From: a virus
IMG/VR virus record: IMGVR_UViG_3300036046_000013
Location: 1-42,602 of that record
Direction: 5' to 3' (one strand)
DNA length: 42,602 nt
Made by a program: the position numbers and the translations under genes
In this document: piece by piece, positions 1,108-42,553 of the stretch
Layout of the letters: the number at the start of each line of letters is the position of its first letter
How positions within the stretch are numbered: position 1 is the stretch's first letter
Notes under the pieces: model-generated
Told to the model about the DNA's origin: nothing
The model's input: the letters and a program-made list of their open reading frames with translations, nothing else
Databases searched by the model: none

Positions 1108-1376
1108 ATCTACGTCATGCCTTTGTTTAAACTTCGGTATAATGATTTATAAGGCAAAAGAACGGCTAAGTCGTTGAATATAATAGGATTGAACGTTTAT
1201 AAGGATTTGACCCCTAGACCCCTTGCCCGCCTGCACTCTTAATCAAAAGCTACTATTGATAAACTGTCTTTTTAGGTATTATATTTTGTTATATTATTAT
1301 ATATCCTTTGTTTTCAATGACTTAGCGACTATACGAACCCTTCAATCCGTATAACAGAAGACTTTTAATAAAAAGC
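1108..1376. other. AT-rich non-coding region, candidate replication origin or leader
   Basis: This is the only gene-free stretch longer than 300 bases (1076-1430 in all), in a genome that otherwise has almost no gaps. It is clearly more AT-rich than its surroundings, above all at 1240-1320 with runs of TATAT/ATTATT. I see no ORF with a ribosome site. It holds TATAAT at 1138-1143 without a good -35, two copies of TTTATAAGG (about 1146 and 1195), and a paired GACCCC/AGACCCC at about 1208-1222. One copy of TTGATAAAYTGTCTT lies at 1256-1270 and its partner at 1384-1398. An AT-rich element with short repeats next to early genes fits an origin, but nothing here proves it. Confidence 0.35.
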
Positions 1377-1398
1377 TTGACACTTGATAAATTGTCTT
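1256..1398. repeat. Direct repeat pair TTGATAAAYTGTCTT
   Basis: The 15-mer TTGATAAACTGTCTT at 1256-1270 recurs as TTGATAAATTGTCTT at 1384-1398, 128 bases apart with one mismatch. The second copy fills the spacer of the promoter at 1377-1405. Together with the -35 box it forms an inverted GACA...TGTC. This is where a repressor or activator would bind; no protein is identified. Confidence 0.45.
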
Positions 1399-1405
1399 GT
1401 ATGCT
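1377..1405 (+). promoter_or_regulatory. Early sigma70-type promoter P3
   Basis: TTGACA at 1377-1382 and TATGCT at 1400-1405 with a 17-base spacer, and an early-family start region (TCAACAATTG). It leads the block of genes from 1431 onwards. The spacer carries the repeat described at 1256-1398, so this promoter may be regulated. Confidence 0.75.
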
Positions 1406-1430
1406 TCAACAATTGATTAAAGGTGAAGCC

Positions 1431-1574
1431 ATGCAACAACCGAAGAAGCGCAAAGGTCGTCGCAAAGGCGTTTTGTCGAAAGACGCGAATTGCAAGAAGT
1501 GCGGTCGAAGTTTGCCGCCGAATACAAAGATTTGCCCGCAATGTTTGGGCGATACAGGATTGCGAACTAAGTAA
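1431..1574 (+). CDS. Zinc-ribbon protein, 47 aa
   Basis: A very small basic protein. Residues 4-14 are almost all Lys/Arg, and a four-cysteine zinc ribbon follows: CKKC at about 22-25 and CPQC at about 36-39. The pattern of a basic tail plus ribbon suggests nucleic-acid binding, but the target is unknown. I chose the ATG at 1431 over earlier in-frame starts because AAAGGTG lies eight bases before it. It is first in the block behind promoter P3 and 12 bases ahead of the next gene. Confidence 0.75.
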   Translation: MQQPKKRKGRRKGVLSKDANCKKCGRSLPPNTKICPQCLGDTGLRTK

Positions 1575-1586
1575 GGAGTTTTTATA

Positions 1587-1883
1587 ATGACTGAACAAAC
1601 GAAGAAATACGCAGTTATTGACGCTTCGCCGAAGGCGCTTGCGTTGTGCGACGCTTCAACGTTGAAACAAGACGAACGTTTGGAAGACAAAGCGAACGCA
1701 AAATATCCGTTTAATTCGTTGCTTGTTGGCGAATCGTTCGCCGTTCCTTTTGCTGACGCTAGCCCCGGAACGTTGCAAAGCTTGCGCAGTTCGGCAACGT
1801 CTTATAGCAAATGGCTAAAGCGAAAGTATCGTGTTTTCGTACATAACGAATTTGCTTGTATTGAAGTTGCCCGCGTTGCTTAA
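1587..1883 (+). CDS. Hypothetical protein sharing a domain with the gene at 5186, 98 aa
   Basis: Residues about 39-98 match the C-terminal domain of the 207-aa protein at 5186-5809. Shared features are YPF..L.VG.SF.V, a Ser-rich LxSxxS(S)A..Y stretch, then F(I/V)V and a final (A)RV. So the phage carries two copies of this small domain of unknown function, one alone here and one behind a second domain. The ATG follows AAGGAGTTTTTATA. The stop overlaps a short TGCCC...GGGCA hairpin with a TGTGGGC copy. Confidence 0.75.
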   Translation: MTEQTKKYAVIDASPKALALCDASTLKQDERLEDKANAKYPFNSLLVGESFAVPFADASPGTLQSLRSSATSYSKWLKRKYRVFVHNEFACIEVARVA

Positions 1884-1918
1884 TGTGGGCATAAAATCAA
1901 CTTGAAAAGGGCTTTACA

Positions 1919-2110
1919 ATGGCAGATATTGCAGACGTAACAGACGAACGAACAGAAGTTCAAATTTCCGCCGATGTTGCAGAAATACAACGCAAGGCGC
2001 AGGCGATGCCAAAAGGCGAACCCGGCGAATGCGTGAAGTGTGGCGAAGATATGCAGCGCCTTGTTAATGGCGTTTGCTGCCCTTGCCGCGACCGTTTTAA
2101 ATTGCCGTAG
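1919..2110 (+). CDS. TraR/DksA-like zinc-finger protein, 63 aa
   Basis: An acidic N-terminal helix (residues 1-33) is followed by a four-cysteine finger, CVKC at about 38-41 and CCPC at about 54-57, and a basic end. Length and layout match TraR-type members of the DksA/TraR family. These enter the secondary channel of RNA polymerase and change promoter choice without DNA binding. Family assignment rests on the pattern only. It is preceded by AAAGGG and lies between small early genes, where a modifier of host transcription would be expected. Confidence 0.6.
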   Translation: MADIADVTDERTEVQISADVAEIQRKAQAMPKGEPGECVKCGEDMQRLVNGVCCPCRDRFKLP

Positions 2111-2121
2111 GAGTAACGAAA

Positions 2122-2268
2122 ATGTCGAATTGTTGCAATGGGAATTGTCGTCAAGGTCGCGACTGCCCGAATCGTCAAGTCGGCTTTAATTGGCCGTTGA
2201 TTGGCGTTGTTGCCGTTTGCTTTGTGTTTTGGGGCGTTGTTATAGCCATTGCTAAGGCGGTTTTATGA
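2122..2268 (+). CDS. Small Cys-rich single-pass membrane protein, 48 aa
   Basis: The N-terminal 17 residues hold five Cys in the pattern NCCNGNCRQGRDCP. A hydrophobic segment at about residues 22-45 is long enough to span the inner membrane once. Small proteins with a CxxxCxQGRxCP head and one membrane helix are widespread in phages of proteobacteria; their role is not known to me. It has a GGAG site ten bases upstream, and its stop overlaps the next start in TTATGA, so translation is probably coupled. Confidence 0.65.
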   Translation: MSNCCNGNCRQGRDCPNRQVGFNWPLIGVVAVCFVFWGVVIAIAKAVL

Positions 2269-2774
2269 CGCCCGACCAACTGGCAAAGAACGGCAGCGAA
2301 GCGGCGCACCAAACAGCATTGTTCGCGTTTTGCGCCGTAGCTTGCCAACATGGCTTTGCGGTTGCTTGGGATTGGGCCGCAGGCGCAGGCATTGAAGCGG
2401 CGAAGTCTTCGCGTTGCAATCGTGCCTCGGTGCCGGAACTTCGTTGGTTGCACCATATCCCGAATGGCGGAAGTCGCGGCGACGATGAAAAGTCGCGTCG
2501 TATTCGCGGCGCACAAATGAAGGCGCAAGGCGTGCGCCAAGGCGTCGCCGATTTGTCGTTGCCAGTTCGTCGCGGCGCATGGTCGGGCCTTTATATCGAA
2601 ATGAAGAAGCCCGACGAAAAGCCAAAGCGCGAAGGCAGTAAAGGCGGCGTTTCTGACGAACAAGCCGAATTCGGCGAATTTGTCAAGGCGCAGGGCTTTG
2701 GCTGGTGCGTCTGCTATAGCTGGCGCGAAGCCGCCGAAGTTATCGAACAATACTTGACCTATTCGACGAAATGA
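2265..2774 (+). CDS. VRR-NUC domain nuclease, 169 aa
   Basis: A PD-(D/E)xK-type nuclease of the VRR-NUC family. Visible features are HHIPNGG (about residues 65-71), a helix ending in GVRQGVADL with the Asp, then LYIEMKKP with the E-x-K pair (about 111-118), and the late SDEQAEFGEFVKAQGF helix. VRR-NUC enzymes cut branched or structured DNA, and phage versions are usually single-domain like this one. The start overlaps the 48-aa gene by four bases. It may help resolve replication or packaging intermediates or degrade host DNA; the substrate is inference. Confidence 0.85.
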   Translation: MTPDQLAKNGSEAAHQTALFAFCAVACQHGFAVAWDWAAGAGIEAAKSSRCNRASVPELRWLHHIPNGGSRGDDEKSRRIRGAQMKAQGVRQGVADLSLPVRRGAWSGLYIEMKKPDEKPKREGSKGGVSDEQAEFGEFVKAQGFGWCVCYSWREAAEVIEQYLTYSTK

Positions 2775-2812
2775 ATTATCGTTGAATTGCCAACTTTGAA
2801 GGAGTAAGCGAA

Positions 2813-3139
2813 ATGAAAAAGCTTGTTGCATTGCTTGCGCTGTTCGTATCGTTTGCAGCATTTGCCGACGATGCGCAATACGTCGCAGCTTCTAAGAAGG
2901 CGGCGGGCATTTTGCTTCGCGCTTCGTTGAATGACCCGGATTCGCTAGTAGTCGAAAGCGCGACAATCTATCGTCGAAACGGGCCGTTCGCCAATATCTG
3001 CGGAACGCTGCGCGCGAAAAACGCATTCGGCGGATACGTTCGACAATACTTCGTCGTAAGCGAAGAAAGCGGAACGTACATCGGCCCGATTCCGCCAACG
3101 TATTTCAAACGCGAATGTTCAGGGGAAGTTATAGAATGA
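2813..3139 (+). CDS. Exported small protein with signal peptide, 108 aa
   Basis: Residues 1-18 form a classical Sec signal (KK, a hydrophobic core rich in Leu/Ala/Phe, then AFA before DD), so the mature protein should be periplasmic. The mature part contains NICGTLRAKNAFGGYVRQYF-like features around residues 62-82. I have seen such a CG.LR.KN.FGGY core in small exported phage and bacterial proteins of unknown role. It could act in superinfection exclusion, but nothing proves this. AAGGAG precedes the ATG, and the stop overlaps the next start (ATGA). Confidence 0.75.
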   Translation: MKKLVALLALFVSFAAFADDAQYVAASKKAAGILLRASLNDPDSLVVESATIYRRNGPFANICGTLRAKNAFGGYVRQYFVVSEESGTYIGPIPPTYFKRECSGEVIE

Positions 3140-3366
3140 TTGATTCCGCAAAAATTCTTGCCGAAGTTAAGGCGAACCGCGAACGCTTGGACAACTGCCC
3201 GAAACATGCGTTCGACTATCCGCAAGACCGCGCGTTGCGCTTCGGCGAAAAGCTGACTTGTCGCAACTGTGGCGGCGTAATGGATGCGGTGCAAGCGTTC
3301 CGTTACTGCCAAGGCTTCGAAGCCGCAGGCGGCGACCCGAACGAAGTTATACCGGGCTTTCGATAA
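3136..3366 (+). CDS. Hypothetical Cys-containing protein, 76 aa
   Basis: The start overlaps the upstream stop in ATGA, so the two are translationally coupled. A single CRNCGG pair (about residues 42-47) and an isolated CPKH (about 21-24) could together bind one metal as C..H..C..C. The rest is helical and charged. I cannot name a family. The start at 3136 is chosen for the coupling; a longer upstream ORF begins at a codon with no ribosome site. Confidence 0.65.
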   Translation: MIDSAKILAEVKANRERLDNCPKHAFDYPQDRALRFGEKLTCRNCGGVMDAVQAFRYCQGFEAAGGDPNEVIPGFR

Positions 3367-3595: not shown

Positions 3596-3620
3596 CAACT
3601 TCGAAGTTTGTTCGTATCAT
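3592..3620 (+). promoter_or_regulatory. Early sigma70-type promoter P4
   Basis: TTGACA at 3592-3597 and TATCAT at 3615-3620 with a 17-base spacer, and an early-family start region (TGAACCATCG). The -35 box overlaps the stop of the 72-aa gene. It drives the gene at 3653 and the dCMP deaminase gene. Confidence 0.8.
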
Positions 3621-3652
3621 TGAACCATCGAACGAACAAAGGAGTTCAAGCC

Positions 3653-3922
3653 ATGCAAACAACGGTCAAAGTTCTAGGAGGTTTGGAAATTACCGTAGAA
3701 TTTACGGCTTGCGCTGCCGAACCAGACGTAGGGCTAATGTCGGATTACTTCGAAGATTGGTCGATTGTTGAAATCGCAGGTCGCCCGCTTCGCAAGAAAG
3801 AATCCGCCGATTGGATTTACAAGCGTCTTTCGAAGCGCGATAATCAAGCGATTGAAGAAGCTATTTATAAGGCGATGGACGATGCAAAATACGACTATTT
3901 CGACGAACCGGATTTCGACTAA
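3653..3922 (+). CDS. Hypothetical acidic protein, 89 aa
   Basis: Not recognised. It starts with a beta strand pair (VKVLGGLEITVEF) and ends in an acidic tail (DDAKYDYFDEPDFD). A strong AAAGGAG precedes the ATG at 3653. It is the first gene after promoter P4. Its last 41 bases overlap the start of the dCMP deaminase gene in another frame. Confidence 0.7.
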   Translation: MQTTVKVLGGLEITVEFTACAAEPDVGLMSDYFEDWSIVEIAGRPLRKKESADWIYKRLSKRDNQAIEEAIYKAMDDAKYDYFDEPDFD

Positions 3923-4496
3923 ATCGCTTTGCCCGGTATGCAATGGCGTTTGCGGCGTCGAAGTTGCGCCCGGCGATTGGTTCGACTGCGACCGCTGCGA
4001 CGCAACCGGACACATTGAACCGGGCCGCGTCATTTATACCGACCGCGCCAGCCTGCCGAAATGGGATGCGCGCTTTCTGGAACTAGCCGAACATATCGCC
4101 GCTTGGTCGAAAGGCCCGCGAAAGCGTATTGGCGCGGTTATCGTTCGGCCTGATAGGTCTATCGCGTCGCTTGGCTACAATGGCCCGCCGCGCGGCTTCG
4201 ACGACGAAGCGTTTTTGGCAATGACGCGCGACGAACAACATTCCGTCGTAATCCATGCCGAAGACAACGCATTGCGCCAGACGCACGAAGCCGAATCGGT
4301 CGCAGGCTTTACCCTGTACGTTTCGCCTCTGTTCCCTTGCGCGTCATGCGCCGACAAGATAGCAAAGGCCGGAATCGCCCGCGTCGTCGCTTATTGTGGG
4401 CACATTTCGCCGGATTGGCGCGCGTCTGCCGAAGAAGCGGAAAGAATTTTTATCGAACATGGCGTAGAATGCTTGTTCATGTTTGAAGGGGCTTGA
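3882..4496 (+). CDS. dCMP deaminase family protein with N-terminal zinc ribbon, 204 aa
   Basis: The C-terminal domain carries the cytidine/deoxycytidylate deaminase signature: HAEDN at about 125-129 (zinc His and catalytic Glu) and PCASC at about 152-156 (two zinc Cys). It should convert dCMP to dUMP and feed dTTP synthesis for phage DNA. Ahead of it, residues 17-45 form a separate Cys4 ribbon (CPVC...CDRC...GH) of DnaJ type, which ordinary dCMP deaminases lack. The ATG at 3882 lies inside the upstream gene with only a weak AAGGCG site, so translation may be coupled. A later start would delete the ribbon. Confidence 0.85.
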   Translation: MQNTTISTNRISTKSLCPVCNGVCGVEVAPGDWFDCDRCDATGHIEPGRVIYTDRASLPKWDARFLELAEHIAAWSKGPRKRIGAVIVRPDRSIASLGYNGPPRGFDDEAFLAMTRDEQHSVVIHAEDNALRQTHEAESVAGFTLYVSPLFPCASCADKIAKAGIARVVAYCGHISPDWRASAEEAERIFIEHGVECLFMFEGA

Positions 4497-4497
4497 A

Positions 4498-4851
4498 ATG
4501 GTAACGCATAAAGACGTAATGGAATGTTGGTTAGTTCGCGACGAAATGGGCAACGTTCTTCAAGTGAATACAGAACAGTTCGCAGCGCCGAAGCTTGTTC
4601 TTACCGAAGGCAGCGTTTCGCCCGAATGGTTTAACGTTCTTCGCGCGTCGGCTGTAATGTATCAACAGCTTTCGCACCAATTCCAAGCGTTACAATCGCT
4701 TATCGACCTTGGCGAAATCGTCGGCGTTAATGAAGAACTATTGTCGCATTTTAACAACATGCAAAACGGCATACTTCTTGCGCAGCGTGTAGCAATCGAA
4801 GGCGTCGAAAAAGTCGCCGTAGCTATTGACGCACAAAAGAAAGTCGGTTAA
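4498..4851 (+). CDS. Hypothetical protein, 117 aa
   Basis: A mostly helical soluble protein. Residues about 48-115 look like a long helical bundle with Gln, Leu and Val at regular spacing (YQQLSHQFQALQSLI). No family is recognised. It starts one base after the dCMP deaminase stop, with GAAGGGG ahead, so it belongs to the same transcript. Confidence 0.7.
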   Translation: MVTHKDVMECWLVRDEMGNVLQVNTEQFAAPKLVLTEGSVSPEWFNVLRASAVMYQQLSHQFQALQSLIDLGEIVGVNEELLSHFNNMQNGILLAQRVAIEGVEKVAVAIDAQKKVG

Positions 4852-6304: not shown

Positions 6305-6584
6305 ACTTGAACTTATCGAAGATTGGCGCAATTTCTGGCGCTTTTGGTCGGTTCGTCTTGGCATAATCGGTTCGGCGCTTACCGGCTTTCTTATCGCATT
6401 TCCCGACCAAGCTTTGCAGGCTTGGGCGTTGCTGCCCGCCGATTTGAAGGCGTATCTTCCCGAACGTTATATGCCGCTTGTCGGCGTCGCAATCTTTGTT
6501 CTTTCGTTGATTGCCCGCGTTATCAAGCAATCGAAGTTGCAACCGAACCAAGGGGCGGAAGATGATAAACAGTCGCAAGCTTGA
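6291..6584 (+). CDS. Second small membrane protein of the lysis cassette, 97 aa
   Basis: Two predicted membrane helices (about residues 21-38 and 61-80) flank an amphipathic loop, with charged ends. Size and topology match a class II holin or antiholin, and similar proteins (DUF7940-type) sit beside endolysins in other phages. It overlaps the upstream holin-like gene by 14 bases and the endolysin gene by 23. Which of the two membrane proteins is holin and which antiholin cannot be told from sequence. Confidence 0.7.
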   Translation: MNKLKLELIEDWRNFWRFWSVRLGIIGSALTGFLIAFPDQALQAWALLPADLKAYLPERYMPLVGVAIFVLSLIARVIKQSKLQPNQGAEDDKQSQA

Positions 6585-30321: not shown

Positions 30322-32391
30322 TTAGAAGAATAGAGAAGCGGTTTCGGCTTTTCGCAACGCCCCGCAATCGTAAAGCATTTCGATTGCTTCTTTGACATAC
30401 CAATCGTAATTAACATCGCTTGGGAATTCTTCGGGCAAATCCATTAAAGGCCGTGCGCCTTCCGTCTTGCCGACTTTGTTTCCGCTGCCCACATAGGCAA
30501 TATAACCGGCTTCGCCCTTCGGATAATACCAACGAACGACCTTGCCAAGATAAAGGCCGTTCTTTTCGCCGCCGCCTTTAACGTTTTTGACAGATACGAA
30601 ACGGCGAATATCTTTGCAATCGCGAATCGTCTTTTCGACCGGAACGCCGTTCTTTAAATACTGCAAAACAGCGTCTGTGCAAATCAGCGTTTCCGGGTTC
30701 TTTGAAAGAATCGAATTCAAAGCGGAACCGCGTTCGGAATATGTGCCTTTGGTCTTGCATCCTAATTGTTCGTCTAAGAAGCGCGCTTCGGGGTCGCCGC
30801 CGTCTTCCTTGATTGCGATATAGGAATTAACGTCGCGGCTATAAACTGCCTTGTATCGCGTTTCTTCGGTTTTGAAGTTGGTTCGATGTTCCCATTCAGC
30901 AATAATCGCTCTTACTTCGTTATGCCGGTCTTTGTGATACTTCGAAACAATGCCGTCTGTATTGCCAGAAATAACCGAAATGCCCGCTTCTTCTAACATT
31001 TCGATAAGCATAAGCAAAACAAGTTGCCCGGTAATCGTAACTTGCAACATAAGTTGCGGCGCGTAAAGCGTCGAATATTTGTTGCCAAGTTTGCCGAAGC
31101 TTCCGTTAATCGTAATCTTCAAGCTATCGGCAATTGTCTTCCAGCGTTTCGCCCCGGCCTTGTCGCCCGCCTTCTTGGCCTTTGCAGCTTCCGCCTTTGC
31201 ATGAATGCGGGTTTCGACAATCTGGTTATAAACCTGCAAGAATGCTTCGCCCAAGTGTGGCGGGAAAAGCCTTTGATTAAGGATGATGCGCGGATAAAAC
31301 GATTCTACGTCGTTATCCGCGATAATAATTTCATCGGTTGCGAAATGGGCTATTTTCTTTTCGTTCGAATGAAGCCCTCCCATGCCAAGTTTATAAATAC
31401 TGCCGCCGATGCTTACTTTAAGCTTTTCCAGTTCGGGCGGCATGATTGGCGAACCCAAGCCGTCGAGGTAAAAGCGCGCGTCGCGTACCGTCTGCAATAC
31501 GGCTTGAAGCTGCGGCGACCGATACGAAATGAAGTCGGGCACGTTGTAAGCCAAGACCGTATCGGCTTCTAGTGTGGGCTTGCGCGGATAATAGCCTAGA
31601 ACCTTTTGCAGTTCGCTATTAATTACGGCTTCGGCTACTTGGGCATCCGATTTGCTGCGAAGGTCTATGCCGTATTCGTCGGACATTTCCATTCGCAATT
31701 TAAGTTCGGGCGCAAGTTCGTTAAAAAGAAGTTCGGTATTCGCTAAATCGTTGCAGCAATACGGGCGCACTATAGCGGCATCTTCCGCCGTTAAAATGTG
31801 CGATTCTGGAAACGGCAAGTCTTGCATTCGCGCCGCGTGCAAGCGCCCGGCGTAAAGCTTCAATGAAGCCGGGTTAGCCGATACGCCGCCATTTACCGGG
31901 CAGACGTTGAACAAGTCGATATGATTGTAACGCCCGATTTGAATTCGATATTTCTTTTCAATATCAAACGGCGTAACCTTTTTCGTTCCCCAATTCTGCC
32001 CGCTTTTGATGATGAAATCCGACGCTTCTTTAAGGTCGTTGCAGCTTAAACCAGCGGCGGCAAGTTCAACCATTGGAATATCGTAAGTCGAACTATTGAA
32101 GCCCACAAGGCAAAAGCGCCAAAGCATCCAACGAAGCTTCATTGGGTTAAAGTCAAAGTCGGGCGAACGTTCAAAAGCTACAAACTTTCCGTTCGCAAGA
32201 CATTTAAACGCGACGTAGAAAAAATTACGGTAAGTTTCAACGTCAAAGACGAAGACGCTTCCGGCTGGAACCGACATTAGTTCTTCGTCTGTCATAAATT
32301 CAACAGGCCGAAGCGCAAGCCGCATTGCCGACGAAAGCTTGTCGATTTTGCGGTTCGCTTTTGTTACGATAAAGCCGTTCGCGTCTAGCAT
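30322..32391 (-). CDS. DNA polymerase, family B type with 3'-5' exonuclease, 689 aa
   Basis: Exonuclease motifs: FDVET (Asp50, Glu52), FNSSTYD (about 98-104) and Y-x3-D (Tyr211 to Asp215). Polymerase motifs: A is DNDVESFYPRII (about 359-370), B is KITINGSFG (about 425-433), C is GNTDG (about 476-480). In motif C the usual first Asp of DTD is Asn477; the metal-binding second Asp479 is kept. At 689 residues it is compact for the family. It copies the phage genome with the clamp-like protein encoded just upstream. AAGGAAAA precedes the ATG, and a consensus promoter lies in the preceding gene. Confidence 0.9.
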   Translation of the reverse strand: MLDANGFIVTKANRKIDKLSSAMRLALRPVEFMTDEELMSVPAGSVFVFDVETYRNFFYVAFKCLANGKFVAFERSPDFDFNPMKLRWMLWRFCLVGFNSSTYDIPMVELAAAGLSCNDLKEASDFIIKSGQNWGTKKVTPFDIEKKYRIQIGRYNHIDLFNVCPVNGGVSANPASLKLYAGRLHAARMQDLPFPESHILTAEDAAIVRPYCCNDLANTELLFNELAPELKLRMEMSDEYGIDLRSKSDAQVAEAVINSELQKVLGYYPRKPTLEADTVLAYNVPDFISYRSPQLQAVLQTVRDARFYLDGLGSPIMPPELEKLKVSIGGSIYKLGMGGLHSNEKKIAHFATDEIIIADNDVESFYPRIILNQRLFPPHLGEAFLQVYNQIVETRIHAKAEAAKAKKAGDKAGAKRWKTIADSLKITINGSFGKLGNKYSTLYAPQLMLQVTITGQLVLLMLIEMLEEAGISVISGNTDGIVSKYHKDRHNEVRAIIAEWEHRTNFKTEETRYKAVYSRDVNSYIAIKEDGGDPEARFLDEQLGCKTKGTYSERGSALNSILSKNPETLICTDAVLQYLKNGVPVEKTIRDCKDIRRFVSVKNVKGGGEKNGLYLGKVVRWYYPKGEAGYIAYVGSGNKVGKTEGARPLMDLPEEFPSDVNYDWYVKEAIEMLYDCGALRKAETASLFF

Positions 32392-32404: not shown

Positions 32405-33538
32405 TTAAAACGGTATGTCGTCGTTTTGGTCGTCTTCGGCATTATACGCTGTTTCGCTTCGTCTGTCAATTCCCATTAAAACGCCGCGCAGGTTTTCACC
32501 GAAGAAATAAGCTTTGTTCTTTTCGGCGTCAAAATGAACGTTTTTAAATCCATGTTCGACGGCAAGAAGAAGCTTTGCGTTAAAGCCCATGCCTTCGGGC
32601 AAGCCTTCAATTTTGTAAGTCGAAGCTTCGGTTTCGCGTTCGTTGGAAGACAAGAAACCATTTTCGAAGAAAACAATTCCGTTTCGGCTAAAGCTTTCGA
32701 TTGCGCGAACTGCCTTGTAAAATTCATCGGGCAAAGGCCAAGGATTCACGCTTTCGCAGTCGAAAACCGTTTGATAATTCGGGTAACGTTCGGCGAAAAG
32801 TTGCGTCTTTATAAACGAACCATCTTCGAACCAAAACGTCGCAGACGATGACGAAAAGCCGAAGCCGGTAAGCGTCTTGTCTGCCTTGGCAATGGCGACC
32901 GCCGACGCCTTGGGAATCAATAGGCCGGGCGGAAGGTCTATGCCGTGCCAGTATTCCAGCAACGCGGCCCCGTTGGTCGCTACGGCGCTTCCGGCTTGCA
33001 GTAAGACCCCGGCAAGGTGCGCATGTTGCGCCCCGTCAGTCGCCAGCCCCATAACCGCTTCGAAGGCCGTTTTAATTCGGTCGTCGATTACTGCTATGTT
33101 TTCATCCGGGCCGGTAATCGAAAGCTCGTTGAAGTCTGCGCAAGGAATAAGCGCCTTGAATGCGCCAGAAACAACGGTAAGCGCATTCGGCGAAAGTTGC
33201 GTAATTGACAGTTCTTCGCCGACTTTCGAAAGCGCGTCGATAAGCTGCAACGTATGCGGGCAAGCGTTCAAGTCTTCTTCGACTTTTGTTGCAACGGTAA
33301 GAATTCCGTTCGACGCTGCCGCCCAATTGCCGGAAATGATGCCGAATTGTTGGTTCGGCGCGCCCGCCTTCTTTTGTGCAACGGCAATAAACTTCAAAGC
33401 TACAAGCAAAGACGCCGCAGGGTTCGGGGCTGCGGTCTTCTTGGCACTTTGACGCCGGGCGCGATGCTTCTTCGCTGGCGCTGGCGCGGCGGCTTCTTCG
33501 GGAATTGGAACGTTATTTTCAATTTGCGTTGTTGTCAT
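32405..33538 (-). CDS. Beta-clamp-like DNA polymerase processivity factor with SSB-type C-terminal tip, 377 aa
   Basis: After a Pro/Ala/Lys-rich N-terminal tail (about 1-45), the body has the rhythm of DnaN-type sliding clamps. The most specific part is FEDGSFIKTQLFAERYPNYQTVF (about 250-272), where DnaN has the R..G.FPDY..V segment. The FFEN/YFFGENLRGVLMGID end corresponds to the last strands. After this comes YNAEDDQNDDIPF, an acidic tail ending exactly like bacterial SSB (DDIPF). I chose the ATG at 33538, with AAGGGGCG ahead, over one seven codons earlier. It overlaps the small MazG-like gene by 20 bases. Confidence 0.78.
   Translation of the reverse strand: MTTTQIENNVPIPEEAAAPAPAKKHRARRQSAKKTAAPNPAASLLVALKFIAVAQKKAGAPNQQFGIISGNWAAASNGILTVATKVEEDLNACPHTLQLIDALSKVGEELSITQLSPNALTVVSGAFKALIPCADFNELSITGPDENIAVIDDRIKTAFEAVMGLATDGAQHAHLAGVLLQAGSAVATNGAALLEYWHGIDLPPGLLIPKASAVAIAKADKTLTGFGFSSSSATFWFEDGSFIKTQLFAERYPNYQTVFDCESVNPWPLPDEFYKAVRAIESFSRNGIVFFENGFLSSNERETEASTYKIEGLPEGMGFNAKLLLAVEHGFKNVHFDAEKNKAYFFGENLRGVLMGIDRRSETAYNAEDDQNDDIPF
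32441..32469 (-). promoter_or_regulatory. Perfect consensus promoter inside the clamp gene
   Basis: Read on the minus strand, TTGACA (32464-32469) and TATAAT (32441-32446) are separated by exactly 17 bases. It lies within the last 25 codons of the clamp-like gene, and the TAT AAT codons are part of its acidic tail. It would give the polymerase gene its own strong transcript. Confidence 0.8.
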
Positions 33539-33758
33539 GTTTCGCCCCTTCTTGGTCAAGTTTGGAAATCGCCGCTTGAAGATAGTTCGCCATATCCAAG
33601 GCTTCTTCTAGCGCATGTTGCAGCCATTCGCGCAACGAAAGCGGGTTATTGTCGGTCGTTACGCCGTATTTTGCAAGCCCGACGATTGAACGTTGCAATA
33701 ACATTTCGCGGTTCTTTTCTACGTTCGAATCGGGCGATTTGGTAATTTCGTTTGTCAT
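33519..33758 (-). CDS. Small MazG-like all-alpha protein, 79 aa
   Basis: Helical protein with KYGVTTD...PLSLREWLQHALEEALDMANYLQAAI. The EExxD...Y motif (about 50-58) resembles the metal-binding helix of all-alpha NTP pyrophosphohydrolases, and 'W..H..EE..D...YL' proteins of this size are frequent in phages. It could clean up or balance nucleotides, but the single short motif makes a non-enzymatic role possible. It starts three bases after the helicase stop and overlaps the clamp gene. Confidence 0.6.
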   Translation of the reverse strand: MTNEITKSPDSNVEKNREMLLQRSIVGLAKYGVTTDNNPLSLREWLQHALEEALDMANYLQAAISKLDQEGAKHDNNAN

Positions 33759-33761
33759 GTT

Positions 33762-35420
33762 TCACCATTCAGCGGAAAGAATTTCAGGATACTTCTTATT
33801 TGTATGAACGCGAATTCGATTCGGAACCCGCAATTCTGATACACGGCGCAAAGCTTCGTAAGTCGTCGGCGGCGGTTCTTCGGCGTGCCGTTGCCGCCAC
33901 CAATCGCGGGCGCGCTTGCCGACTAGGCCGGGATGTTCAAGACAAACCCATTCGTTGAACATTTGAAAGCCGCAGAAATACGAAACTTTCATCGAAGGCG
34001 GCGAAGCTAAAACGCCTTGTTCGTTCCGTTTTTCGTGCAAGTTGTAAATTACTTTTTGAACGTTGAAGTATTCAATAACCGGCGCGTCGGAACGGATAAC
34101 TTCGCCTTGAAACGAACTTGCAAAGATTTTGGTTTCGAACGTGAATTCGGTTCCGCAGTTGCAACAAAAGCGCGCCGAAGCATGATTATAGACGCCGCAG
34201 TTTTCGCAAATACGAACCGGCGCGTCGCCGGGCGTGCCTTTACCGGGCTTGCGCGGTTTAACCGGGTCGTTGATAGGCCCAAGGCGTCGAACGTTTCCGG
34301 CGAAGTCAAGGAACAAGCAATTTTCCTTGCCGGTTTCGGGGCTTGGTCGCGTACCGCGCCCGCCCTTTTGAACGTGTTTGCCGGGGCTTGTTGTGGGCTG
34401 AAAGTCGGCGATAAGGTCGATTGCCGGGAAGTCGTAACCCGTCGTATATTTGTTCATGCCCACAAGGGCGCGATATTCGCCAGCTTCGAACGCCGCCATT
34501 CGCTTATCGTTTTCGTCGTCTTTAATCTTCGAATGGCTGGCAATGGCCGGAATGCCGAACGAATTTAAAATGGCGGCGATATGTTCGCAGTTCTTAACGC
34601 CAGCGGCGAAGATAAGCCAATGTCGCCGGTCGTAACCAAGTTCGCAAGTTTCGCGCAAACCTTTGTAAATAACTTTTTCGGCTTCTTCTTCGGCTTGTTT
34701 GCTGTTGAAATCGCCGCTTGAAATTCCAAGGTTTGACGTATCGACTTTCGTTGTTGTTGGGCGCGAAATCAGCGGCGACAAATAGCCTTCGGCAATAAGA
34801 CGGTTAAAAGCTTCGATGCCGGTTATATCGTAACAAACATCGGTAAAAATCCCGCCTTCGTCGGTAATCATGCCTTGTTTAAGCCGATACGGCGTCGCAG
34901 TAAATCCGATTACTTTAAGATACGGATTTATTTTCTTCAATTCTGCGATAACGTATTGGTATTGCGTATCTTCGTCGGGGCTTAACAAATGGGCTTCGTC
35001 GATAATCAGCAAGTCGCGCCATCCAAAATGGCGCAAATGCGGCGGCGTGTTATCCGTTTGTTTCAACGCGCGTTCAATTGCCTTTGCGACGGATTGAACG
35101 CCGCCAAATACGATAGGCATAATCATATCGCGCGAATTTAAACCCGCTGAATAGATGCCCATTGGCGCAACCGGCCAAACCGACAAAAGCTTTTCGGCAT
35201 TCTGCGAAATCAGCTTCTTAACGTGCGTAAGCATCATTACACGTTGATTCGGCCAATATCCGAAAATCTTTTTAATAAAGTTCGCGATTACAACCGACTT
35301 TCCGGTTCCGGTCGGCATGGCGACGACGGGGTTTCCCGCCCCGCCCCGCTGGAAGTAATCGAAGATTGCGAATTCGGCTTCGTCTTGATACCAACGATTC
35401 GCATAAACTACGTTAGACAT
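33762..35420 (-). CDS. Superfamily 2 DNA/RNA helicase (DEAH type), 552 aa
   Basis: Walker A is MPTGTGKS (35-42), motif II is DEAH (141-144), motif III is GFTATPYR (about 174-181), and motif VI is QKGGRGTR (about 360-367, Q..GR..R). C-terminal to the helicase core lies a Cys4 ribbon, CENCG...CCNCG (about 410-428). It resembles RadD/YejH-like enzymes. Likely roles are fork remodelling or recombination with the neighbouring Cas4-like nuclease, whose gene overlaps its start by eight bases. Confidence 0.87.
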   Translation of the reverse strand: MSNVVYANRWYQDEAEFAIFDYFQRGGAGNPVVAMPTGTGKSVVIANFIKKIFGYWPNQRVMMLTHVKKLISQNAEKLLSVWPVAPMGIYSAGLNSRDMIMPIVFGGVQSVAKAIERALKQTDNTPPHLRHFGWRDLLIIDEAHLLSPDEDTQYQYVIAELKKINPYLKVIGFTATPYRLKQGMITDEGGIFTDVCYDITGIEAFNRLIAEGYLSPLISRPTTTKVDTSNLGISSGDFNSKQAEEEAEKVIYKGLRETCELGYDRRHWLIFAAGVKNCEHIAAILNSFGIPAIASHSKIKDDENDKRMAAFEAGEYRALVGMNKYTTGYDFPAIDLIADFQPTTSPGKHVQKGGRGTRPSPETGKENCLFLDFAGNVRRLGPINDPVKPRKPGKGTPGDAPVRICENCGVYNHASARFCCNCGTEFTFETKIFASSFQGEVIRSDAPVIEYFNVQKVIYNLHEKRNEQGVLASPPSMKVSYFCGFQMFNEWVCLEHPGLVGKRARDWWRQRHAEEPPPTTYEALRRVSELRVPNRIRVHTNKKYPEILSAEW

Positions 35421-37002: not shown

Positions 37003-37731
37003 TTAACGTTGGCCCCAAGGTGCGCCGCCTGCCGGGGCTGCGCCGCCTTGTTGCTGACCCCATGCCGGGGCATTGCCTGCCGGTTGCTGCGGCTGTTGGG
37101 GCTGCTGCGGCTGGCCCCAAGCGGGCGCACCGTTGCCAGCCGGGGCGGCGGGCTGTTGCGGTTGCTGCGCAGGCTGACCGCCCCAAGCCGGGCCGTTGCC
37201 GGGCTGCTGCGTCTGCGCTGCGGGCTGTTGGGGCTGCTGCGGCTGGCCCCAAGCGGGCTGCTGCGGCTGGCCGAAGCCTTGCGGTTGGGCTTGCTGCTGG
37301 CCTTGGCCCGCCTTGCCGGGTTCGTTGCCGTTAATGTCGAAAACGCGCTTAACTTCGGTATAACCCTTTTGCCGCGCTTCGTCGCCCTTTTGGAAATCGA
37401 CTTCGACGATAAACGGGATATTGTGCAATTGCTGCGTATCTTGCACATTGAAGACGCCGACAACGTGGCAGACGGCGGAAAGCTGACGGTGCGCAATTTC
37501 GACCGTCTGTTGGTTTTGATGGTACAGGTTCAGACGGTAAGCGCCGACGCTGCCAGCGGAAGGGCCGTCAATAATCTTCAAGTTCAGTTGAAGATAACCG
37601 CCGTCGTTCTTCGAATTCGCCTTGACTTCCGACGATTCGATAATAACGGGATGCTTGCCGACCGGAAGACCGCCAACGCCTTGGGTCGGGTCGTATTGTT
37701 GCGCGTTGAACGCTTGCAGAAGTTGTGCCAT
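37003..37731 (-). CDS. DUF669-family recombination-associated protein (SSB-like), 242 aa
   Basis: Residues 1-135 have the DUF669 pattern: PVGKHPVIIESSEVKANSKNDGGYLQLNLKIIDG at about 24-57, then strands to about 125. DUF669 proteins are found beside phage recombinases and may bind single-stranded DNA. The C-terminal 100 residues are a Gln/Pro/Gly/Ala repeat with recurring PAWGQPQQP and APAWGQ units, ending GGAPWGQR. This copies the disordered linker of SSB but lacks the acidic DDIPF tip. AAAGGTG precedes the ATG. Confidence 0.75.
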   Translation of the reverse strand: MAQLLQAFNAQQYDPTQGVGGLPVGKHPVIIESSEVKANSKNDGGYLQLNLKIIDGPSAGSVGAYRLNLYHQNQQTVEIAHRQLSAVCHVVGVFNVQDTQQLHNIPFIVEVDFQKGDEARQKGYTEVKRVFDINGNEPGKAGQGQQQAQPQGFGQPQQPAWGQPQQPQQPAAQTQQPGNGPAWGGQPAQQPQQPAAPAGNGAPAWGQPQQPQQPQQPAGNAPAWGQQQGGAAPAGGAPWGQR

Positions 37732-37811: not shown

Positions 37812-38492
37812 TTACGACATGCATTTTTTGAAAACTTCGCCAAGATTCGGCGGTTCAAGTTCAGCAAGACGCCCGGAACGGTCGCGCGCCATGATTCCAA
37901 ACGTCGGAAGCGCGCGAATTGCGACAACAGGTTTTGCCGTGCCGGGAATATTCGCTTCGGCAATGTGCAAAATTTCGTCGTAAAGGTGCGGAACCTTTAC
38001 GTTCAAATCTTGACCCGGAAAATACGGGCGTTTCATAGCTACGCCGTTTTCGTCAGCGGTAACTTGCTTCGCAATCAAATAGATATGCTTTTGCGGCAGG
38101 TAATAAAGTTTGTTGATAATATCCATTACCCGACGCGACATTTCGCCGTAAGCCTTGCGACCGTCTTTATTACGGTTAAGTTCTTGCGTCAAAATGATTT
38201 CGGCCAATTGCGAAACCGAATCAATGCCGACCGTATCGAAGTTCGCAGCTTCGCGCGATTCGAACAGCCATTTAAAGAATTCGTCGATACGTTCCGGCGT
38301 GTATGCGTCCCAAGCCGGAATATTCGTTGCGTCGCGCATTGACAACATGCCGGGTTCTACGACGCAAAGAACGGGCCGGGGCGCGGTCTTGATAAGCGGC
38401 GTCTTGCCGGTGCCGGGCGGGCCATAGGCCAGCGCCTTAACGCCGAAGCGTTGCGCCAGTTCCGAAGCTGGCTTTAAATTGGACATTTGCAT
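37812..38492 (-). CDS. AAA/RecA-like ATPase, Sak4-type single-strand annealing protein, 226 aa
   Basis: Walker A is GPPGTGKT (24-31). An acidic Walker B-like strand appears in FDTVGIDSVSQLAEIIL (about 94-110), and a YLIAKQVT strand follows at about 148-155. Size and pattern (APRPVLCVVEPGMLSM, NIPAWDAYTPERIDEFFKWL) match the phage AAA_24/Sak4 group, RecA-like core proteins that promote annealing with an SSB partner. The DUF669 protein is encoded next. Its start overlaps the winged-helix gene by 56 bases, with AGGAAG ahead. Confidence 0.82.
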   Translation of the reverse strand: MQMSNLKPASELAQRFGVKALAYGPPGTGKTPLIKTAPRPVLCVVEPGMLSMRDATNIPAWDAYTPERIDEFFKWLFESREAANFDTVGIDSVSQLAEIILTQELNRNKDGRKAYGEMSRRVMDIINKLYYLPQKHIYLIAKQVTADENGVAMKRPYFPGQDLNVKVPHLYDEILHIAEANIPGTAKPVVAIRALPTFGIMARDRSGRLAELEPPNLGEVFKKCMS

Positions 38493-40059: not shown

Positions 40060-40248
40060 ATGCAACTAGACGAACTGATAAAGCGGCTTCGGGCCGCAGC
40101 GGAAGCGAAGTCGCTTCGCACCTTGGGGCGCGAATGCGGCGTATCGCATGAACTTATCCGAAAACTATTGAAGGCAGGCGACGAAGTATCAATTACAGTT
40201 GCAAGCTATAACAAAATCGACAAGGGCTTGCGGAACAATGACAATTGA
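40060..40248 (+). CDS. Small helix-turn-helix protein, 62 aa
   Basis: KRLRAAAEAKSLRTLGRECGVSHELIRKLLKAG (about 7-39) reads as a helix-turn-helix of the Cro/transposase type: a helix, then TLGRECGVSHELIRKLL. The position directly behind the divergent promoters makes it a candidate regulator of both. The ATG at 40060 is chosen for AGAAGGTG ahead. It overlaps the primase start by 11 bases. Confidence 0.7.
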   Translation: MQLDELIKRLRAAAEAKSLRTLGRECGVSHELIRKLLKAGDEVSITVASYNKIDKGLRNNDN

Positions 40249-42553
40249 AAACATACCGCAGGAAATGCGGATTTATAAACAATGGGTTTGTTGGCGTTTT
40301 GAAGATATAGACGGGCCGAAGCCGACGAAGGTTCCTTATTCGCCGCTTACCGGCAAGCTTGCCAGCGTAACCGACCCGAATACATGGGCCAGCTTTGAAC
40401 AAGCGGCGCACGTTCTAACGACAACGAATTGGTATAACGGAATTGGCTTCGTATTGACCGAAGCCGACCCGTTCGCTTTTATCGACTTGGACGATACAAA
40501 GGGCGACCAAACGGCGTTAGACCGTCAAATTAAGATTTACAACGAATTCGATTCGTTCGCCGAACGTTCGCCGTCTGGTTCCGGTCTTCATATCATCATC
40601 AAAGGCGCTTTGCCTTCCGGGCGTCGCCGTTCCCATATTGAAATCTATTCGTCGGCGCGTTATATGACGATGACCGGCGACATTTACCGCAACGCACCAA
40701 TTCGCGAATATAACGAACTGTTGAATATTCTTTGGTCGCAAATGGGTTCGGGTTCGGTCGCTGCCGCCGTATATGCTGGCGTCGCCGAAGCGAAAGAAAG
40801 CGACGAAGAAGTTATAGCCCGCGCGACTGCCGCAGCCAACGGCAAGAAGTTTGCCGACCTTTACGCGGGCAACTGGCAAGACTATTACCAATCGCAATCC
40901 GAAGCCGATTTCGCGTTGGTTGATATTGTCGCGTTTTATTCGCAAAATCGGGCGCAGATTTCCCGAATATTCCGCGCGTCTGGCCTTGGGCAACGGGAAA
41001 AGGCGAAGCGTAACGATTACGTTTCGTATATGTTGAACAAGTGTTTCGACCGCATGTTGCCGCCCGTCGATATTGACGGATTGCGCAACCAACTTAACGC
41101 AGCTATTGAAGCCAAGCAACGCGAAGAACAAGCGCAAGCAATGGCCCCGAAGATTGCTTCGCAAGTTCGACAAGTTGAAATGCCGAAGCCGAAAAGCGAT
41201 GTTTATTCGGTTCCGCCCGGATTGGTCGGCGAAATCGCGCAATTCATCTTCCAGCAAGCGCCGCGCCCGGTGCCCGAAATCGCCTTGGCCGGCGCGCTTG
41301 GTTTGATGGCCGGTATTGTGGGCAGGGCTTACAACGTATCGGGAACCGGCCTTAATCATTACGTCATGCTTCTAGCGCCTACCGGAACGGGTAAAGAAGC
41401 AATCGCAAGCGGCGTCGATAAGCTTATGGGCGCAGTCATTCGAACTGTTCCCGCTGCAACGGATTTTATCGGCCCTTCTGAAATCGCATCGTCGCAAGCT
41501 GTTATTAAGTATATGTCGAAAGGCCCGACAAGCTTTGTTAGCATGGTCGGCGAATTCGGTATCTATCTTCAACAAATGGCAAGCCCGAATGCCCCTTCGC
41601 ATTTGTTGGGGCTTCGTCGTTTCATGTTGGACGCATACAACAAAAGCGGCGAAGGTAAAGTTTTAAGGCCGTCGATTTATTCCGACCGCGAAAAGAATAC
41701 GTCGGCAGTTCTTGCGCCGTCTTTTACGATTCTTGGCGAATCAACGCCAGAAAAGTTTTACGAAGGCTTGCACGAAGGCTTGATTTCCGAAGGTCTGTTG
41801 CCGCGCTTTACGACGATTGAATATCACGGCGACCGCCCGGCATTGAATCCGCATCATACGCACGCGCAACCAAGCTTCGAAGTTATCGACAAGCTTTCGA
41901 CCGTCTGCGCGCACGCGCTAATGTTGAACAGCCAACATAAGGCCGTGCATGTTGGATTTGCGCCGGAAGCGAAAGCAATGTTCGATGAATTTGACCGACA
42001 TTGCGATTTGAACATCAACAGTTCAGATAAAGAAGTTCGCCGCCATTTGTGGAACCGGGCGCATATTAAAGCAATGAAGCTTGCGGCGTTGGTTGCCGTT
42101 GGCTGCAACCCTTACAACCCGGTTATTTCCGCAGACGTTGCAGCATGGGCGACGAATCTTATTGTCGCAGACGTTCGCAATCTGCTAGACCGCTTCAACG
42201 CTGGCGAAATTGGCATAGACAACGACGAAACGAAACAGCTTGCCAAGGTAATTTCGACGATGAAAGAATTTGTCGTTTCGCCTTGGCCGGAAGTTGTCAA
42301 GTATGCGGGCGAAGGTATGTCGAATTTGCATTCGAACCGCATTGTTCCTTATAGCTTCGTTCAACGCAAACTAGCCGCCGTTGCTGTTTTCCGCAAAGAC
42401 CGCATTGGGTCAAGCGGTGCAATAAAACGGGCCTTGAAGACGCTTTGCGAACGGGGCGACCTGCAAGAAGTTAGCCGGGCAACGCTGGCGAAAGACTACG
42501 GAACAACCGCCGTTGCTTACATGATAGCGAATGCAAAAGTCTTCGGATTGTAG
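40238..42553 (+). CDS. PrimPol / DUF3987 primase-helicase, 771 aa
   Basis: The N-terminal domain resembles archaeo-eukaryotic primases of NrS-1 polymerase type. Features are an early YKQWVCWRFE...KVPYSP segment (13-35), FIDLDD with the metal Asp residues (81-86), SGSGLHI (113-119, S-x-H motif) and a following IEIYSSARYMTMTG (134-147). The C-terminal half is a DUF3987-type ATPase with Walker A APTGTGKE (about 379-386). It should both prime and unwind DNA at the fork. A helicase and primase in one chain removes the need for host DnaB/DnaG. The ATG at 40238 lies inside the HTH gene end. Confidence 0.85.
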   Translation: MTIENIPQEMRIYKQWVCWRFEDIDGPKPTKVPYSPLTGKLASVTDPNTWASFEQAAHVLTTTNWYNGIGFVLTEADPFAFIDLDDTKGDQTALDRQIKIYNEFDSFAERSPSGSGLHIIIKGALPSGRRRSHIEIYSSARYMTMTGDIYRNAPIREYNELLNILWSQMGSGSVAAAVYAGVAEAKESDEEVIARATAAANGKKFADLYAGNWQDYYQSQSEADFALVDIVAFYSQNRAQISRIFRASGLGQREKAKRNDYVSYMLNKCFDRMLPPVDIDGLRNQLNAAIEAKQREEQAQAMAPKIASQVRQVEMPKPKSDVYSVPPGLVGEIAQFIFQQAPRPVPEIALAGALGLMAGIVGRAYNVSGTGLNHYVMLLAPTGTGKEAIASGVDKLMGAVIRTVPAATDFIGPSEIASSQAVIKYMSKGPTSFVSMVGEFGIYLQQMASPNAPSHLLGLRRFMLDAYNKSGEGKVLRPSIYSDREKNTSAVLAPSFTILGESTPEKFYEGLHEGLISEGLLPRFTTIEYHGDRPALNPHHTHAQPSFEVIDKLSTVCAHALMLNSQHKAVHVGFAPEAKAMFDEFDRHCDLNINSSDKEVRRHLWNRAHIKAMKLAALVAVGCNPYNPVISADVAAWATNLIVADVRNLLDRFNAGEIGIDNDETKQLAKVISTMKEFVVSPWPEVVKYAGEGMSNLHSNRIVPYSFVQRKLAAVAVFRKDRIGSSGAIKRALKTLCERGDLQEVSRATLAKDYGTTAVAYMIANAKVFGL

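Follow-up and report, generated by a model that had tools for sequence, protein, structure and literature searches.

A phage sliding clamp ending in an SSB-type docking tip, with the same tip on other proteins of related phage replication blocks

The locus described here raises the question of why the sliding clamp of a phage should end in the peptide through which bacterial SSB docks its partners, and which proteins such a peptide would bind at the phage fork. The window analysed is an entire virus record of 42,602 bases, in which the clamp gene is divided as follows.

32405..33538, minus strand: sliding clamp gene (phrog_947), 377 aa, ATG start, TAA stop, from ORF translation, profile and fold
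33419..33538, minus strand: N-terminal extension of the clamp, residues 1–40, basic and Pro/Ala-rich, predicted to be mostly disordered (pLDDT 49–69)
32465..33418, minus strand: clamp body, residues 41–358, predicted DnaN-type fold (pLDDT mostly >90; Foldseek E 3e-18)
32408..32464, minus strand: acidic tail, residues 359–377, the IDRRSETAYNAEDDQNDDIPF region past the last strand, predicted to be disordered (pLDDT 45–49)
32408..32425, minus strand: SSB-type tip NDDIPF, residues 372–377, abutting the stop codon, from translation, alignment and end controls

The translated reading frame ends in SETAYNAEDDQNDDIPF, with DDQNDDIPF lying directly 5' of the TAA, and its last five residues, DDIPF, are those of E. 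coli SSB, which ends DDDIPF (PMC5872125); the translation thereby bears out what an earlier, sequence-only reading of this DNA had stated. Fourteen or more host proteins dock on the C-terminal peptide of SSB (SSB-Ct), and their pocket reads the carboxylate of the terminal Phe together with the acids upstream of it (PMC5872125).

The same reading had taken the protein for a DnaN-type clamp. The phrog_947 profile, “DNA polymerase processivity factor”, matches residues 34–358 with an E of 1e-70, the tail lying outside the matched stretch, and a Pfam search of the protein gave no clamp hit and nothing useful; comparison with the PDB by phmmer returned only hits to HlyB, which were dismissed as chance. 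The AF2 model, made with 56 relatives, has a mean pLDDT of 90.4 and a pTM of 0.83, most of the body being above 90, and Foldseek matched this body in the PDB to DnaN clamps or DnaN-containing complexes, the best match having an E of 3e-18 and a TM of ~0.7. With high confidence the body is thus predicted to have a DnaN-type fold, as had been proposed, which rules out the candidate of a bacterial SSB with an OB-fold ssDNA-binding body. The likeness to the bacterial beta clamp extends across the whole body, but the identity to DnaN is 14–15%, and the window clamp serves a family B polymerase and has extensions at both its N- and C-termini. Among named phages, Septimatrevirus and relatives come closest (the clamp is 75% identical to that of LPPA15 and ~66% to that of phage 73), and their counterparts of the Septimatrevirus type are annotated as “replicative clamp”. 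By profile, gene order and fold the window clamp is a member of phrog_947, the processivity factor or replicative clamp of Septimatrevirus, Lokivirus and Queuovirinae; it differs from many members in having the tail.

The last 19 residues are predicted to be disordered (AF2 pLDDT 45–49), and conservation within them is confined to their end. In the first alignment, which was not selected for the tip and whose six clamps are 50–66% identical to that of the window, I-P-F is invariant (6/6), and the linker before it differs among the same six in length and sequence; the conservation claimed beforehand for the tail was thereby found, for its end. In a set of 33 tip-bearing clamps the linker ranges from 2 to 91 residues, D stands at −5 in 32/33, D or E at −4 and I or V at −3, the P and F being fixed partly because this set was chosen by the tip. 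Of the 7,742 ORFs in the fetched loci that reach 40 aa, most of them spurious, 61 end in an acid followed by [ILV]PF; the permuted control ends P[ILV]F, FP[ILV], [ILV]FP, PF[ILV] and F[ILV]P occur in none, nor do the substituted ends [ILV]AF, [ILV]SF, [ILV]PL and [ILV]PW, and [ILV]PY occurs in 2. These counts bear on the simplest explanation, chance or drift, by which an acidic, disordered C-terminus would have come to end in IPF by accident. Acidic tails are indeed common in disordered regions and the tip is lost in some relatives, but the score of 61 to 0 against permuted ends, the invariance of IPF across clamps of 48–66% identity and its recurrence on unrelated carriers make this explanation hardly credible, and a chance origin is regarded as refuted by the conservation. 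In two clamps very close to that of L017 (L018 and L025), DDNFPPF replaces YEDDIPF, a rapid change of the tip within one clade, and this end resembles NDYPPF, the end of the SSB of phage HK620.

A leftward replication block has the clamp as its last gene but one; in order it comprises MazG, DUF7173, Sak4, DUF669 SSB, DUF3268 protein, Cas4-like nuclease, SF2 helicase, 79-aa protein, clamp, family B polymerase. The features that enter the argument, including a primase/helicase on the other strand, are these.

30322..32391, minus strand: family B DNA polymerase (phrog_1252), the next gene downstream of the clamp, from profile search
30325..30339, minus strand: polymerase C-terminus ASLFF, resembling a clamp-binding motif in sequence, putative in function
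33519..33758, minus strand: 79-aa protein (phrog_11184) between helicase and clamp, from profile and synteny
33762..35420, minus strand: SF2 helicase, a relative of E. coli RadD (phmmer E 1e-46)
37003..37731, minus strand: DUF669 SSB-like protein (phrog_6015), ending APWGQR, without the SSB tip, from profile and C-terminus
37812..38492, minus strand: Sak4-like annealing ATPase (phrog_124), which may be a partner of the tip within the phage, from profile
40199..42553, plus strand: primase/helicase (phrog_3022) with NrS-1 HBD and DUF3987 domains, from profile

Ends of the FF, LF or LFD kind are present in 54/64 polymerases of the set, and by analogy the polymerase C-terminal motif would bind the clamp. 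Neither profiles nor a Walker-A scan detected a clamp loader in the window, where, helicases aside, the Walker-A motif was matched only in the terminase, in Sak4 and once, by chance, in the tape-measure protein. In many phages the annotation of the RadD-like helicase goes no further than DNA helicase or restriction subunit. The DUF669 SSB-like protein of the window ends GGAPWGQR, in keeping with the earlier statement that it has no tip, and the SSB tip is found on none of the phage DUF669 SSBs (0/66). These share another C-terminal pattern, P(A)WGxR-like, at 58/66 loci, which is perhaps a docking tip specific to the phages.

The clamp is not the only protein on which the tip is found. In divergent relatives it stops at its last strand, and the tip stands instead at the C-terminus of a protein of ~65–90 aa with four invariant cysteines in the pattern CxxC...C...PP...C. 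This small protein belongs to phrog_23504, a family without a function, and a Pfam search with it gave no hit. Its gene usually abuts the SF2 helicase gene at the end of the latter or overlaps it there, a linkage that holds even where a queuosine gene cassette parts it from the clamp. In a tblastn search with one member, 82 phage records were matched, and among the matches listed 60/60 reach the tip. AF2 gave a weak model for the small protein (pLDDT 72, pTM 0.43) and Foldseek found no match with it; zinc binding may be inferred only from the four cysteines. In phage Shy the counterpart of the 79-aa protein is flanked by the tip-bearing small protein on one side and the clamp on the other; by this comparison the slot of the small protein is empty in the window, the gene being missing between helicase and 79-aa protein in the clade of the window. 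An intact ORF of this type is left unannotated in several records, for example at 2911–3216 in Sphingomonas phage Eidolon (L190) and at 6455–6685 in L078.

A third kind of carrier is the helicase itself. In Nonagvirus 9g (L195), a phage of E. coli, the helicase (1318–3321) ends GKELPPDFDDDIPF and the SSB of E. coli ends NEPPMDFDDDIPF, that is, PPDFDDDIPF against PPMDFDDDIPF, with DFDDDIPF common to both; on the clamp region of 9g the tip was not found. Capture of this helicase tail from an ssb gene was considered and rejected: the best E. coli matches of the last 102 bases are ssb genes (77.6% over 49 bases), but with E = 3 they are not significant. The Seuratvirus helicase (Seurat, L103, 2748–4724) has an acidic C-terminal extension ending DDPDYVPF, which is kept in >30 related records. 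The clamp ORF of Seurat, short at 246 aa, is probably either an N-terminally truncated annotation or a variant. At one further locus (L058) a Cas4-like nuclease, 3616–4641, ends LDSDIPF, and the small protein there has the tip as well. Read from these sequences, the tip is not specific to the clamp; conservation applies to the presence of a tip near the fork, which most of the divergent relatives have on another protein.

This spread of carriers weighs on two further explanations. The C-terminus of DnaN adjoins the peptide pocket, and the tail might regulate the clamp itself, folding onto its own pocket or onto the DNA-facing basic surface and thereby gating the polymerase, much as the SSB tail competes for its own DNA site. 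The polymerase end ASLFF, likewise a short hydrophobic C-terminal peptide, would suit such gating, but the AF2 model shows the tail disordered and undocked, the tip is found also on proteins that are not clamps, and linkers spanning 2–91 residues would have to be accommodated, which together make self-regulation very improbable. By the other explanation the tip-bearing clamp or small protein would be a decoy, titrating host repair and restart proteins off the host SSB and so blocking replication restart or nuclease attack. A mimic of high affinity would compete through the same pocket, and one tip on differing carriers would serve equally; every carrier found belongs, however, to the replication and recombination block (clamp, helicase, helicase-linked small protein, one Cas4 nuclease), and none is a free-standing early inhibitor gene, so that a decoy is considered quite improbable.

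Across 77 scored loci the tip is carried by the small protein only in 34, by the clamp only in 28, by both in 3 and by neither in 12; it is kept in most of the clade of the window and is absent or altered, both carriers being counted, in those 12, of which 5 have near-tips such as DDNFPPF, DDEIQF, SSNDIPF and DDISV. It is on neither carrier in L032, L034, L035, L047, L072, L083 and Ab_SZ3, and there it must be dispensable or replaced. In one clade (L070, L071, L073, L074, L076 and L086) the small protein still follows the helicase and ends YGCECFELKG, without the tip, and the clamps have a 77-residue linker and DDDDVPF; as judged from these ends, the small protein of this clade has lost its tip and the clamp has gained one. 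In L049 and L050 the end left on the small protein is IPF without the acids, and the clamp ends DDDIPF or EDDIPF. By raw counts the exclusivity of the carriers has a Fisher p of 2e-8. On the tree there are ~3 informative independent switches, all 3 in the opposite sense and 0 in the same (sign test p 0.25), and because only these 3 are informative the mutual exclusivity of the tip carriers is taken as suggestive and not proven.

The residues of the tip were also compared with those of host SSBs. In a sample of 80 alphaproteobacterial SSB loci, those of Rhodobacterales end DDEIPF in 55/60, and those of Sphingomonadales end DDDVPF in 8 and DDDIPF in 4. E before IPF is found in phages of Rhodobacter, on the clamp, and of Sulfitobacter, Paracoccus and Aminobacter, on the small protein; phage lineages with gamma- or betaproteobacterial hosts have D there in 10/11 and E in 1/11, the contrast giving a one-sided Fisher p of 0.013 in what is a small, hand-picked set. 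The DDVPF clamp tips of L062, L071 and L076 agree with the Sphingomonas SSB tip, although these phages are linked to that host through a clade adjoining Sphingomonas phages and not through identified hosts of their own. Mismatches are also found: Sphingomonas phages of known host have NDIPF, DEIPF, DKIPF and VIPF against DDDVPF in the host, a Rhizobium phage has GDIPF, and a Vibrio phage has QLYIPF, which is not acidic. The phage tips thus appear to follow the host SSB tips in part, and since the set is small and hand-picked this is support and not proof.

In the model preferred here, the DUF669 SSB, having no tip, would replace the host SSB on the phage fork, and because the phage's own SSB lacks it the tip would have been moved to another fork protein, namely the clamp in the window and the small cysteine-rich protein or the RadD-like helicase in relatives. 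A tip on such a protein would restore the hub, drawing host proteins that dock on SSB-Ct to the phage fork. Support for mimicry comes from the tip being conserved while the linker varies, and from its presence on several carriers of the block and on none of the DUF669 SSBs. Molecular mimicry of the host SSB-Ct by the tail of the clamp is considered probable, the binding of host proteins being predicted from the likeness; the explanation as a whole, in which host SSB-binding proteins are recruited by this mimicry, is held with modest confidence.

As to the host protein that would be recruited, the chi subunit (HolC) of the host clamp loader is favoured among the clients, since the phage has a ring clamp for which no clamp loader was found, along with its own primase/helicase and polymerase; recruitment of chi would let the host loader load the divergent phage ring. 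In E. coli the contact between SSB-Ct and chi stimulates loading of beta (PMC11253446), and chi (PF04364) is present in 7/7 Rhodobacterales and Sphingomonadales genomes tested, both of which are reasons for this preference. Chi is present in only 2/14 control genomes, being rare outside Proteobacteria among these controls, and the tip is also present in a Synechococcus phage, so that chi cannot easily be the partner everywhere and there would be other clients too, possibly PriA, RNase HI, RecQ, RecO and others. Chi as the main partner of the tip is therefore a doubtful, if attractive, proposal.

The strongest rival is a partner within the phage, the decoy and self-regulation being less likely. 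A phage protein would here bind the tip, Sak4 being the likeliest receptor and the RadD-like helicase a possible one, and the contact would bring recombination functions to the complex of clamp and polymerase. In HK620, Sak4 depends on the terminal hexapeptide NDYPPF of the cognate SSB of that phage (PMC5928155); Sak4 is encoded in the window, and the clamps of the close relatives L018 and L025 end DDNFPPF, which is near NDYPPF. The phage helicase is RadD-like, and RadD of E. coli uses the arginines R21, R49 and R145 to bind SSB-Ct (PMC10238739). As regards Sak4, however, the tip-less relatives L010, L032, L034, L035 and L047 retain it. As regards the helicase, R21 and R49 are not conserved in 69 phage helicases, and only R145, which adjoins a helicase motif, is kept as K or R (67/69); with two of the three arginines unconserved, a RadD-type pocket on the phage helicase was rejected, a verdict that is not final because the alignment is gapped around R49. 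A purely internal ligand would, moreover, leave the match of E before IPF to the Rhodobacterales SSB unexplained, unless the partner coevolves. Docking within the phage is accordingly judged unlikely, and recruitment of host proteins is kept as the preferred reading. Its most far-reaching form can be put forward only as a tentative possibility: the tip may be a portable label that is worn by the clamp, phrog_23504 or the RadD-like helicase, follows the host SSB tip, and hijacks the host SSB interactome, chiefly the clamp loader, for a replisome whose SSB has no tip.

The earlier proposal that an SSB-type docking peptide hangs on the phage fork has thus stood in part. The tip-less DUF669 SSBs of the phages (0/66), the alternative carriers and the partial match to host tips speak for it; the tip did not prove specific to the clamp and some relatives have none, and binding to host proteins stays a prediction beside which a phage partner is possible. 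The likeness to the bacterial SSB-Ct (DDDIPF) lies in the C-terminal position, the acidic residues with I-P-F, the disordered linker and the last five residues held in common with E. coli, and the differences lie in the carrier, which is a DnaN-fold clamp, a small Cys protein or an SF2 helicase and not an OB-fold SSB, and in the binding, which is predicted here. HK620 likewise has an SSB-like C-terminal tip, NDYPPF, in a replication and recombination module containing Sak4, but there the tip is on the SSB, and the DUF669 SSB of the window phage has none. Gp2.5 and gp4 of phage T7 have acidic C-terminal tails ending in Phe, which bind the phage polymerase. Phe-ending acidic tails on more than one replisome protein are a feature shared with T7, in a comparison that does not extend to I-P-F, and the partner of the T7 tails is a phage protein. 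No report of such a tip on a clamp was found in the open-access literature searched, which agrees with the earlier statement that no described clamp with such a tail was known. Clamp and tip are each of a known kind; their union, the alternative carriers and the matching to the host are, as far as the open-access literature shows, undescribed.

If true, the mimicry would explain how phages that encode a polymerase, a clamp and an SSB but lack a clamp loader can make use of host replication proteins. It would also give a first hypothesis of what phrog_23504, the family of the small protein, and the helicase tails in 9g- and Seurat-type phages do, and it would provide natural mimics of SSB-Ct directed against proteins that are studied as antibacterial targets.
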